A stretch of DNA of 64,000 bases from Sutcliffiella horikoshii. GTDB taxonomy: Bacteria; Bacillota; Bacilli; Bacillales; Bacillaceae_I. The notes under the pieces are model-generated. The model saw nothing but the letters and a program-made list of their open reading frames with translations. It searched no databases and was not told where the DNA came from. The stretch lies in contig KV440964.1 in the NCBI GenBank assembly GCA_001636495.1, forward strand, positions 574,666 through 638,665, given 5' to 3'. Below, piece after piece: positions 2,961 through 26,223 of the stretch (its first letter is position 1; each line of letters begins with the position of its first letter). Both the position numbers and the translations under genes were made by a program.

Positions 2961-3082
2961 GTTGATTGTAGTGAAAGGCGCGCAGACTTCTGCGGGAGGA
3001 AGGGACATGGAAGACCCCGCAACGGAGTGAGGAGGCTTCCGGACCGCCCGCGAAAAGCGAAGCGCCTGAAACGTAGATCAAC
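2961..3082. repeat. Dispersed structured repeat, copy 1
   Basis: About 122 bp bounded by GTTGAT and ATCAAC. Internal complementary pairs are GGCGC/GCGCC and GGAAG/CTTCC around the conserved ACCCCGC core. The same architecture recurs at 7279-7612 (split), 7394-7520 and 26095-26223. It lies between the dnaB terminator and the purA operator. I recognise this kind of element as common in Bacillaceae intergenic regions but know no established name or function. Confidence 0.85.
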
Positions 3083-3140
3083 GAGCTAAGTGCAATATAT
3101 AAATTAAATTAGGTTTTGAGTAGGGAATGCGACTTAATTA

Positions 3141-3175
3141 CGAACAAATAGGTTTTTATTATAAAAGATTGTTCG
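3141..3175 (+). promoter_or_regulatory. PurR operator (two divergent PurBoxes) of purA
   Basis: CGAACAAAT (3141-3149) and its inverted partner ATTGTTCG (3168-3175) are separated by 18 bases. This fits the B. subtilis PurR operator, in which two divergent CGAAC-type PurBoxes with A/T-rich flanks are separated by about 16-17 bp. It lies just upstream of the -35 box, so PurR bound when PRPP is low should repress purA. Confidence 0.85.
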
Positions 3176-3183
3176 TGTTTTGG

Positions 3184-3212
3184 TTGACTTTCTCGTAGTC
3201 AGCTGATAAACT
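3184..3212 (+). promoter_or_regulatory. Sigma-A promoter of purA
   Basis: -35 TTGACT and -10 TAAACT with exactly 17 bases between them. Transcription would start near 3219 and give a leader of about 55 bases. Confidence 0.8.
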
Positions 3213-3272
3213 AACTTTGGTTGAAAATTGATTTTAAAAAAAGTTTACATATTTAGTGGAGGTGTACGAACT

Positions 3273-23790: not shown

Positions 23791-24540
23791 ATGATTACAT
23801 TACATCAAGTCAGTAAAGAATTCGAAGGTTTTCAAGCGGTAAAGGCTGTTTCTTTGAACATAGATAAAGGGGAAATCCATGGAATCATTGGAGCAAGCGG
23901 GGCCGGCAAATCGACCTTGCTACGGCTGATGAACCTGTTGGAAGTCCCAGACGCCGGGCTGGTGGAAGTGAACGATCAAGATCTGACAAAGCTGCGGGGC
24001 AACAAACTCCGCGCGGCTCGAAAGTCCATCGGGATGATCTTTCAGCATTTTAATCTGGTGGCGAACAAAACGGTATATGAAAATATTGCAGTATCTTTGG
24101 AGCTGTCAGGCTATCCAAGAAAAGAACGCCGTCAGAGGGTGATGGAGTGTCTGCGATTTGTCGGCCTCGAAGGCTTTGTGAAAAAATATCCAGCCCAGTT
24201 GAGCGGCGGACAAAAGCAGCGTGTCGCCATTGCCAGAGCATTGGCGAATGGTCCGGAGGTGTTGTTGTGTGATGAACCAACATCCTCCCTTGATCCCAAC
24301 ACGACGACGGAAGTATTGGCGGTGTTGGAAAATGTGAACAAAAGCCTTGGTGTGACGGTGGTGGTCGTCAGTCACGAGATGGAAGTCATCAAAAGCATTT
24401 GCCATAACGTGACGGTTATGGCGAACGGGGAAGTGTATGAGACGGTGCGCACAAAACCTCAAGGTGTCATACAGATAGACAGCAATCCTCAATACTTTGT
24501 CGACCAACTGGTGAAGGAGGCTGACACGGACCATGCCTGA
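23791..24540 (+). CDS. metN: Methionine ABC importer ATPase MetN
   Basis: 249-residue ABC ATPase of the D/L-methionine importer. Walker A GASGAGKST, Q-loop MIFQHFNL, signature LSGGQKQR, Walker B LLCDEPTSSLD and H-loop VVVSHEM are all intact. It lacks the long C-terminal ACT-like extension of MetN types of about 340 residues, so substrate feedback control through that domain is missing. The ATG follows GAAGGGG; the upstream frame has no ribosome site. It overlaps metI by eight bases. Confidence 0.85.
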   Translation: MITLHQVSKEFEGFQAVKAVSLNIDKGEIHGIIGASGAGKSTLLRLMNLLEVPDAGLVEVNDQDLTKLRGNKLRAARKSIGMIFQHFNLVANKTVYENIAVSLELSGYPRKERRQRVMECLRFVGLEGFVKKYPAQLSGGQKQRVAIARALANGPEVLLCDEPTSSLDPNTTTEVLAVLENVNKSLGVTVVVVSHEMEVIKSICHNVTVMANGEVYETVRTKPQGVIQIDSNPQYFVDQLVKEADTDHA

Positions 24541-25195
24541 AATTTTAATGCAATATGAAGCGGAAATCTGGCGGTCCATCGGGGAAACCTTCATCATGGT
24601 CGGCGTATCCATCCTTGCTGCCGTTCTCATAGGGCTCCCGGTTGGTACATTGCTTTACCTATGCAGGAAAGGGAATCTGCTCGCCAACCAGTTTGTCTTT
24701 TCCACTTTAAATCTACTGGTGAATATCATCCGCTCTTTTCCGTTCTTGCTGTTGGTCGTATTTCTGATTCCTTTTACACGATGGATTATTGGAACAGCAA
24801 TTGGTACTTCGGCTGCAACCGTCCCACTGGCGATTATTGCGATTGCCCACTATTCAAGGCTTGTGGAACAATCGTTATTGGACGTCCCAAAAGGTGTGTT
24901 GGAAGCGGCTGTTTCCATGGGAGCTTCGGTGAGGGAAGTGGTTTTTAAATTCCTTTATGTGGAGGCTCGGTCCAGTCTTGTCCTTGGATTGACCACCTCG
25001 ATCATCAGTTTTATTTCCTACTCCACCATCATGGGCGTGGTAGGTGGCGGTGGGATCGGGGATTTCGCCATCCGCTATGGCTACCAACGATTTGAAACCG
25101 AATTGATGATGTATATGATCATCATTATGGTCATACTGGTACAACTGATACAGTTTACAGGAATGACTGTGTCGAGAATGATTGATAAAAGATAA
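24533..25195 (+). CDS. metI: Methionine ABC importer permease MetI (MetP)
   Basis: 220 residues, five membrane helices. The family pattern is clear: N-terminal ETFIMVGVSILAAVLIGLP, LLVNIIRSFPFLLLVVFLIPFTR, the coupling motif EAAVSMGASVREVV, and VGGGGIGDFAIRYGYQRF near the end. The start lies inside metN with AAGGAGG upstream, indicating coupling. The substrate protein gene follows after 30 bases. Confidence 0.92.
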   Translation: MPEILMQYEAEIWRSIGETFIMVGVSILAAVLIGLPVGTLLYLCRKGNLLANQFVFSTLNLLVNIIRSFPFLLLVVFLIPFTRWIIGTAIGTSAATVPLAIIAIAHYSRLVEQSLLDVPKGVLEAAVSMGASVREVVFKFLYVEARSSLVLGLTTSIISFISYSTIMGVVGGGGIGDFAIRYGYQRFETELMMYMIIIMVILVQLIQFTGMTVSRMIDKR

Positions 25196-25225
25196 GCATG
25201 AATTTGCAACAGGAGGATTTTCTTA

Positions 25226-26062
25226 ATGAAAAAATTATTATTTCTAATGACGCTGGCTATTGTGATGCTAGCTGGATGCGCGCAAAACAATCAAGGAAAT
25301 GAAGGGGAAGCTGGAGATTCTGGCAAAACCCAAGAAAATGAACAAGTTACATTAAAAGTGGCGTCCCTGATCCCCCCAATGACAGAAATTCTGGAGCTTG
25401 TGGAACCGAATCTTGCCGAAGAAGGCATTGAATTAGAAGTGGTTGTGTTAGGTGATAATGTCCAGCCGAACAGCGCTCTTGCAAATGAAGAAGTAGATGC
25501 AAACTTCTTCCAGCACGTTCCTTACATGGAGGAATTCAACCGTAATAACGAAGCTGAGTTAGTTGGGATTACGCCAATCTACTACGCGAACTATGGCGTA
25601 TATGCGAAAGACTACAATGACATCGAAGAACTGCCAGAAGGTGCTGTATTGGCCATTGCAAATGATGTTTCCAATATCGATCGCTCATTGGCACTCCTTG
25701 CACAACATGACGTCATCACGTTAAAAGAAAAGACAGGCCCATATTATACACAAGCAGATATCATCGAAAACCCAAATAATTATAAGTTTGAAGAAGTTGA
25801 CCTACTAATGCTTGCGAGAATGTACGATGACGCCGATGCGGTCGTCATGACGCCTGCTTATGCAGCTCCGCTAGGATTGACGCCGAAAAGTGACGCGCTC
25901 CTGACAGAAGGAACCGACAATGAATTTGCCATCACACTTGTTGCGCGTGAAGACAACAAGGACTCCGAAGCTATCAAAAAGCTTGCTGAAGCCATGACAA
26001 GCCAGGAAGTACGTGAATTCCTAAAAGAAAACTACGACGAAACCGCGATTCCAGCGTTTTGA
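25226..26062 (+). CDS. metQ: Methionine-binding lipoprotein MetQ
   Basis: 278-residue NlpA-family lipoprotein that captures methionine outside the membrane. Signal peptide MKKLLFLMTLAIVMLAGC with lipobox LAGC. The mature protein has KVASLIPPMTEILE, EVDANFFQHVPYMEEF (classic MetQ), YYANYGVYAKDY and the C-terminal LKENYDETAIPAF. Strong ribosome site AGGAGG. The dispersed repeat at 26095 and a terminator follow. Confidence 0.93.
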   Translation: MKKLLFLMTLAIVMLAGCAQNNQGNEGEAGDSGKTQENEQVTLKVASLIPPMTEILELVEPNLAEEGIELEVVVLGDNVQPNSALANEEVDANFFQHVPYMEEFNRNNEAELVGITPIYYANYGVYAKDYNDIEELPEGAVLAIANDVSNIDRSLALLAQHDVITLKEKTGPYYTQADIIENPNNYKFEEVDLLMLARMYDDADAVVMTPAYAAPLGLTPKSDALLTEGTDNEFAITLVAREDNKDSEAIKKLAEAMTSQEVREFLKENYDETAIPAF

Positions 26063-26094
26063 GATAGAGTTTAAAAATAACATGTAAGTCTTAA

Positions 26095-26223
26095 GTTGAT
26101 CGTAGTGAAAGGCGCGAAGACTCCAGCGGGGGGATAGCGACAATCTTGAGACCCCGCAGGGCGTAGCCCGAGGAGGCTCAAGGTCGCCCCGCGGAAAGCG
26201 AAGCGCCTGTAACGAAGATCAAC
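26095..26223. repeat. Dispersed structured repeat, copy 4
   Basis: Bounded by GTTGAT and ATCAAC like copy 1. Inner pairs are GGCGC/GCGCC and CTTGAG/CTCAAG; the central block is GAGACCCCGCAGGGCGTAGC. It begins 33 bases after the metQ stop and lies before the operon terminator, so it is probably transcribed as part of the metNIQ mRNA 3' end. Confidence 0.85.

Follow-up and report, generated by a model that had tools for sequence, protein, structure and literature searches.

What keeps the two arms of a short repeat complementary from copy to copy, and what carries such a repeat around a genome? These questions are raised by a 64,000-nucleotide stretch of the Sutcliffiella horikoshii genome (contig KV440964.1, positions 574,666 to 638,665; hereafter the window), which holds four copies of an imperfect hairpin of about 125 nt, here called E, all on the + strand. 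Repeats of this kind are well known from Bacillaceae sequences. An initial annotation of the window had described the copies as covarying in three stems and as belonging to no named family, and had offered a mobile REP-like element as one possible identity. We find that E is probably a structured, non-coding mobile repeat that forms the core of several miniature transposons, including one (type b) whose ends are shared with an autonomous IS1182-family transposon that carries E.

Two of the four copies in the window are a single nested insertion

The features concerned are the following.

2961..3082, + strand: E copy 1, full length, GTTGATT...GATCAAC, covariance model score 119.1 bits
7282..7348, + strand: 5' part of E copy 2, of the GTAGATT... 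subtype, interrupted by a transposon; the joined flanks match the E library (blastn, locus L398)
7349..7565, + strand: type-b miniature transposon inside E copy 2, 217 bp, with inverted ends CAGGCCACTGAAAAA and TTTTTCAGTGGCCTC
7397..7517, + strand: E copy 3, full length, within the type-b transposon, 100.0 bits
7566..7609, + strand: 3' part of E copy 2, ...AAATCTAC; the joined flanks match the E library (L398)
26095..26223, + strand: E copy 4, full length, GTTGATC...GATCAAC, 139.7 bits

The three intact copies each match the covariance model with an E-value of at most 1.2e-23, and on either strand each folds better than every one of 200 dinucleotide shuffles, with z values from -3.7 to -6.3. 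The copies first placed at 2961-3082, 7394-7520 and 26095-26223 are therefore real, the second of these intervals including three further pairs that extend the outer stem of copy 3. The split copy annotated at 7279-7612 is real as well, its two halves lying around the 217-bp miniature transposon; it is absent from the model-search matches and is recognised from the sequence and from the blastn match of its joined flanks. The left transposon end, at 7349-7363, is imperfect, and the right end lies at 7551-7565 (G000:C1:582216-582230). A target duplication was looked for at this insertion and none is left. Copies 2 and 3 are a single nested insertion: the initial annotation had all four copies, but missed both that 7397-7517 sits within the split copy and that there are carrier transposons. 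Comparison of related loci also revealed sites without E, among them the place corresponding to copy 1 in Bacillus tianshenii (L332).

Four copies alone would be weak proof of an element; E is established by 150 scored copies in its own genome and by its presence, according to the covariance model, in 190 of 249 genomes (85 of 106 genera) sampled from the order. All 150 match the model at full length (worst E-value 3.7e-15). Since they are the scored part of 1146 first-look candidates the copy number is at least 150, and at least 172 distinct copies are present once the neighbours of scored copies are included. By blastn, E was matched in 16 of the 16 genus genomes searched and in 160 of the 249 order genomes; in a class sample that includes the order members it was found in 104 of 398 genomes and 34 of 145 genera. 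E is thus widely distributed across the order and has a patchy distribution across the class.

The fold of E is maintained by compensating changes

In aligned copies the outer stem, GTTGATY/RATCAAC, is often extended by GCT/AGC or CCCT/AGGG. It is followed inward by a symmetric GNA/GNA loop, a G-C and a Y-R pair, a second GNA/GNA loop and a stem such as AGGCGC/GCGCCT. GNA loops of this kind can form sheared G-A pairs. Further features are a conserved internal loop (GACTCC opposite GGAAAGCGA, with GCGGG/CCCGC) and two strongly varying stems, the first reading GCGAC/GTCGC, GCGGG/CCCGC, GCTGG/CCAGC, GTGGC/GCCAC and others, the second CTTGAG/CTCAAG, GGTGAG/CTCACC, GGGAG/CTCCC and others. The top consists of ACCCC/GGAGG and then a short apical stem such as GGGC/GCCC; E contains no T-run terminator. 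The compensating ends pointed out initially (GTTGAT/ATCAAC and GTAGAT/ATCTAC) are present in the copies, as are the variable inner stems GGCGC/GCGCC, GGGTG/CACCC, CTTGAG/CTCAAG and GGAAG/CTTCC.

Covariation was assessed against a tree-aware null, our own re-implementation in the style of R-scape rather than R-scape itself, in which parsimony substitutions on a FastTree tree are held per branch and re-dealt over the columns, and pairs are scored by a G-test with average product correction. Three alignments that have some rows in common were used: an order-wide one of 63 distinct rows (A4) and an own-genome one with 127 rows used (A5), both model-fitted and leaning towards structure, and a plain MAFFT alignment of 25 rows (A3) as a control without fitting to structure. 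Significant pairs numbered 12 of 41 in A4 by a lenient two-set test and two by a strict one-set test, the latter result being unchanged in a separate run with 100 null sets; the corresponding numbers were 11 of 39 and five in A5, and five of 41 and two in A3. No off-structure pair reached significance in any of the three. The loops are conserved alongside: the 5' G and A of the outer loop are kept in 61 of 63 A4 rows and 126 of 127 A5 rows, and its 3' G and A, per column, in 63 of 63 and 126 of 127. The second loop is less strict, with its 5' arm kept in 55 of 63 and 80 of 127 rows. Compensating changes therefore maintain a conserved fold comprising the outer stem, two GNA/GNA loops, inner stems and the apical hairpin.

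The changes are also asymmetric between the strands. Events from a Watson-Crick pair to GT/TG outnumber those to AC/CA by 40:12 (p 1.3e-4), 53:20 (p 1.4e-4) and 13:3 (p 0.02), each counted on a single parsimony reconstruction per alignment. As this ratio would be reversed on the opposite strand, it suggests that the + strand is selected as a single strand, and a double-stranded cruciform, which would be symmetric, is argued against as the only reason for the fold. We infer, less firmly than the fold itself, that the selected form is the + strand as RNA or as single-stranded DNA. Both the excess of covarying pairs over the phylogenetic background and this asymmetry bear out the initial proposal that paired change in the helices reflects selection for a folded RNA or single-stranded DNA.

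A mutational origin of the covariation has to be weighed here, in which template switching or gene conversion lets one arm of an imperfect palindrome correct the other. It is indeed common for both partners of a pair to change on one branch (in A4, 70 Watson-Crick to Watson-Crick events against 103 from Watson-Crick to mispairs of all kinds), the arms of L074 are complementary at the positions of the GNA loops in its relative L282, and arm segments are swapped between L287 and L323. However, conversion tracts would erase internal loops, and the outer GNA/GNA loop persists next to a pair covarying between T-A and C-G; nor is an excess of G-T over A-C a prediction of conversion. We consider this origin unlikely. 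Conversion between E arms nevertheless seems to occur, judging from copies such as L074:1501-1626 and L287:3321-3446, the outer arms of which are complementary or swapped relative to a related copy.

E is the core of at least three families of miniature transposon

Families of longer units surround E in its own genome, and no fewer than three families of miniature transposon, with differing inverted ends, are built around it. Such ends enclose E in its composite forms and are not evident in many solo copies: both type-a ends flank E in 24 of 209 copies, the count in control windows 700 bp off being 1 of 399, and 71 type-b and 25 type-d insertions were found.

Type b is the only type for which an autonomous partner (IS1182) was found. 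Its ends, GAGGCCACTGAAAAA, are present in at least 13 of the 16 genus genomes, and lie 1864 bp apart at least five times in G005 and 1875 bp apart at least once in G008. Type-b copies of autonomous length number at least seven among the matches listed; transposase genes were read in two of these seven (L413 and L420), and the L413 gene was scanned against a family model. It encodes a 484-aa transposase of the IS1182 family (NF033551, 358.9 bits against a cut-off of 270). In the autonomous element E lies upstream of the transposase gene, and the six copies of 1864-1875 bp in G005 and G008 all contain E and all sit within another E.

Such nesting predominates among the type-b insertions seen. 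Over all fetched loci, 52 of the 71 distinct insertions lie within E; the 71 are partly drawn from loci L271-L370, which are among the matches listed for one E pattern and so were fetched by E itself, and among loci fetched by the inverted end alone the figure is 15 of 20 listed. Duplications of 8-9 bp, with one mismatch allowed, flank 53 of the 71. When 50 of these 52 insertions were mapped onto E, 45 fell in the apical hairpin, about 12% of the length of E, and four at a common second spot; the remaining one, the window's own insertion without a duplication, lies just outside the apical hairpin. Carried and host E point in the same direction in 42 of the 52 cases and in opposite directions in 10 (p 9e-6). 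Some of the type-b insertions outside E were found by eye in terminator-like hairpins (L393, L302, L305, L314, L389 and, apparently, L420 of G009).

Hairpin targeting by an IS1182-family element is already published. The part of that report available to us describes insertion of IS1272/TnSha1 into hairpins and terminators without target duplication and with partial hairpin deletions (PMC4923244). Type b shares with these elements an IS1182-family transposase and insertion into hairpins or terminators; as far as that description goes, it differs in mostly leaving 8-9 bp duplications and in carrying its own preferred hairpin target.

Type a has the ends GGCTCTGTTAAA/TTTAACAGAGCC, is mostly 180-190 bp long and comes from loci in several families of the order. 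Its 8-bp, AT-rich target duplications are seen in 13 of the 24 cases, mismatches allowed. IS1595 and ISL3 were tried as the source of these ends and rejected: the own genome has no match to either, and seven loci of relatives (L421-L427) lack a matching end pair. One of these, L423 (positions 1786-1797, in the relative G002), has a type-a-like right end with one mismatch just past a disrupted transposase gene of the IS1595 type, and neither a left partner nor an E accompanies this end; it is a possible lead to the type-a transposase.

Type d, with the ends TCAGTGTGTAGACA/TGTCAACAGTCTGA plus a variant, is often flanked by a duplicated terminator-like hairpin. A flanking direct repeat of 16-31 bp accompanies 16 of its 25 insertions, mismatches allowed, and 15 of these repeats fold as a hairpin, often with T's after it. 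The transposon thus lands between two copies of the whole hairpin, as in L043, L044, L050, L058, L107, L230, L306 and others.

E probably stands apart from REP elements and from named Bacillus repeats

Taken strictly, the REP-like identity proposed initially would mean that a REP-associated tyrosine transposase (RAYT) mobilises E, in the manner of REP/REPIN elements, as single-stranded DNA hairpins. The own genome does have a single RAYT-type Y1 transposase gene (L031:1318-2064; G000:C1:823775), which encodes 198 aa from an internal ATG and scores 77.2 bits with NF047646, slightly below the cut-off of 80. Similar proteins occur in 151 of the 249 order genomes, including 9 of 9 of the genus in that sample. 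RAYT is somewhat more frequent in E-rich genomes, at 89 of 129, than in the others, at 62 of 120 (odds ratio 2.1, p 0.006, uncorrected for kinship), and E copies within 250 bp of each other are divergent in 23 of 23 cases in the own genome and 22 of 27 at other loci, resembling REPINs.

However, no E lies within 1.5 kb of the own gene, and of 30 distinct RAYT loci just one has an E (43.5 bits) in the 1.5 kb on either side. Co-occurrence with any E is weak (both 123, E only 67, RAYT only 28, neither 31; odds ratio 2.0, p 0.02, again uncorrected for kinship), 40 E-rich genomes lack RAYT (89/40/62/58 for the E-rich table), and the mobile forms of E have DDE-type inverted ends and target duplications. 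On gene location and weak co-occurrence we reject RAYT as the mobiliser of E, and a REP/REPIN identity is most improbable. According to the accessible part of its definition, a REP is a unit of 20-40 bp ending in GTAG or CGTC and linked to or co-inherited with RAYT (PMC3733652). E, at about 125 bp, is several times longer; it has an internal GNAG segment in which the second base varies, and it lies away from RAYT genes, with neither linkage nor close co-inheritance. As far as that source goes, E and the REP/REPIN-RAYT systems have in common a structured repeat, inverted doublets and, in many genomes, a RAYT-like gene. Of the initial wording, then, "mobile" stands, on the evidence of transposon carriers and duplications, whereas "REP-like" in the strict, RAYT-linked sense does not.

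As a separate matter, the divergent E doublets (for example G000:C1:1034665-1034981, 2494977-2495292 and 3148249-3148558) are spaced mostly by 52-93 bp, in one case by 233 bp, with a spacer seemingly common to several of them. The doublet may itself be a mobile unit.

The statement that E belongs to no named family agrees with the Rfam comparison: a scan of the window gave only four tRNAs above thresholds, and seven E loci searched at E-values up to 1 gave one weak sub-threshold match, outside E. In the open-access PubMed Central literature we found no report of E or of its self-nesting. E is new to the literature searched, and may have been partially detected earlier under another name, such as Bhal-1, a 74-bp repeat with 36 copies in B. 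halodurans according to the portion of the source available (PMC2267715).

A further reading equates E with bcr1 or another named Bacillus repeat. In size, copy number and intergenic location E resembles the B. cereus repeats, as far as they are described in the accessible parts of PMC6542083 and PMC2267715. In the same sources bcr1 is described from the B. cereus group, in both chromosomal and plasmid DNA, and tied to TTTAT motifs, whereas none of 16 plasmids matching E among 72,556 records is named as a B. cereus-group species, such plasmids being assumed to be in the collection; E also has no Rfam match. This identity is very unlikely. Both E and bcr1 are intergenic mobile repeats, often in untranslated regions, and by the indirect plasmid test their hosts differ. 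More broadly, E resembles miniature inverted-repeat transposable elements (MITEs) and structured repeats such as ERIC, BOX, RUP and bcr1-bcr18 in being short, non-coding, palindromic, intergenic, non-autonomous and present in high copy number. It differs from them in spanning many families of an order and in having a covarying fold, and may differ in forming the core within at least three transposon end types.

Distribution on chromosomes and plasmids

Among the matches listed, hosts of E include Sutcliffiella, Rossellomorea, Lentibacillus, Pseudogracilibacillus and Bacillus spp. Own E loci are 86-92% identical to several other Sutcliffiella horikoshii loci across 1-2.5 kb; in B. tianshenii one stretch is 89% identical to own loci, and the longest match to the window is 79%. 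Assuming the position of the origin, + and - copies in the own genome show no two-half pattern of replication-strand bias. The 16 plasmid matches to E or part of it came from a distant blastn search with one E query, and seven cover at least 80% of that query; the records belong to Priestia, Peribacillus, Bacillus, Paenibacillus, Niallia and Sporosarcina. One E query had no match in phage records, and E. coli genomes had no E match.

Three observations on these records may be added. In two genera, plasmids of Bacillus subtilis (L373) and Paenibacillus urinalis (L374) have a module of zwf, gnd and glucose-6-phosphate isomerase that includes an E-like copy (80% over 70% of the query), placed between gnd and a hypothetical gene. 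Genes for a recombinase and a Tn3 transposase follow in L374. On a Priestia megaterium plasmid (L375:3002-3184), E is annotated as the hypothetical protein WP_080754389.1. Finally, an exact 32-position pattern match to the apical hairpin, GAGACCCC..GAGGAGGCTC, occurs in contigs labelled as other phyla: L337:5210-5245, in a metagenome-assembled genome labelled Gemmatimonadetes, and L338:7313-7346, in one labelled Spirochaetaceae. Strong model matches there are limited to the hairpin, and L337 is also similar to a different repeat of alphaproteobacterial plasmids (L433-L437). These hairpins may reflect distant relation, convergence or misbinning.

E lies close to gene 3' ends

With genes called by a simple open reading frame rule, 143 of the 150 scored copies have called neighbours on both sides, and 13 of the 150 overlap an open reading frame of at least 120 aa. 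Copies between co-directional genes (101 of 143) are more often sense than antisense (66 against 35, p 0.003). On a circular genome convergent and divergent gaps are equal in number; E occupies 32 convergent gaps and 10 divergent ones (p 0.0009). It thus avoids divergent (promoter) gaps, and its median distance is 74.5 bp to gene 3' ends against 149 bp to 5' ends. The sense bias is significant in one subfamily only: sense to antisense counts are 30:10 for type-a-like copies, 30:24 for solo copies and 6:1 for type b. Among 13 ortholog pairs listed, several of them redundant, the similarity of E exceeds that of both flanks in 11; it lies between those of the flanks in L287/L323 and below both in L156/L296, where the copy appears decayed. 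Thirteen pairs are too few for a conclusion on conservation in place.

These data bear on whether E is mainly a host-useful RNA element acting in cis, in mRNA 3'-end stability, in termination or as an RNase target, that transposons have merely spread. The proximity to gene 3' ends, the preference for convergent gaps, the sense bias of type-a-like copies, the similarity of E between orthologs and a strand asymmetry that favours G-U would all fit such a role, as would an analogy with bcr1-bcr18, of which 40-51% of copies in two strains lie in mRNA according to the available part of PMC3446304. On the other hand, solo copies have no significant sense bias, a 3'-end location is expected of tolerated insertions, a number of related loci lack E (counted over part of the copies), and the T-run of a terminator is missing. 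A mainly host-useful role is possible, but we regard it as doubtful.

Discussion

E is best seen as a MITE core and, in type b, as the cargo of a hairpin-targeting IS1182 element. We envisage that DDE transposases act in trans on the inverted ends and so would spread E; that transposons carrying E would bring new landing sites with them, giving nested insertions downstream of genes that are mostly harmless to those genes; and that selection may act on the fold of a single strand, either as RNA in 3' regions or as a single-stranded DNA hairpin, to lessen harm to the host, to aid transposition, or both.

Several points weigh against this explanation. Since the ends alone should suffice for a DDE transposase, the conservation of the internal fold is not explained by transposon carriage in itself; an effect as RNA, an aid to transposition or quality as a target may account for its retention. 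L420 is a 1687-bp version of the IS1182-like element, with a 493-aa open reading frame alike by eye, and has no E, so E is dispensable for the element. A transposase for types a and d was not found, the own genome lacking any IS1595 or ISL3 match. Many solo copies have no clear inverted ends or duplications by eye, some resident copies, such as that in L296, appear decayed, and a sense bias with respect to genes is not seen in all kinds of copy. Of the 41 A4 pairs, 29 are non-significant even by the lenient test, many of them being nearly invariant.

A bolder extension, which we put forward tentatively, is that E is a portable landing pad: unrelated hairpin-targeting transposons would have converged on carrying the same folded hairpin. 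If so, each jump would export a new harmless target, the hairpin being the favourite target of one carrier, and the fold would be kept through its recognition as RNA or single-stranded DNA. E would in that case be a selfish target site common to several transposases. The apical hairpin might then extend past the Bacilli, as in L337 and L338.

E is a very abundant structured repeat of the Bacilli that lacks an Rfam match and has been annotated as a protein in at least one instance. It joins structured-RNA-like covariation, miniature transposons and hairpin-aiming transposases, which are usually studied separately, and its type b offers a testable case of a transposon that bears its own preferred target.

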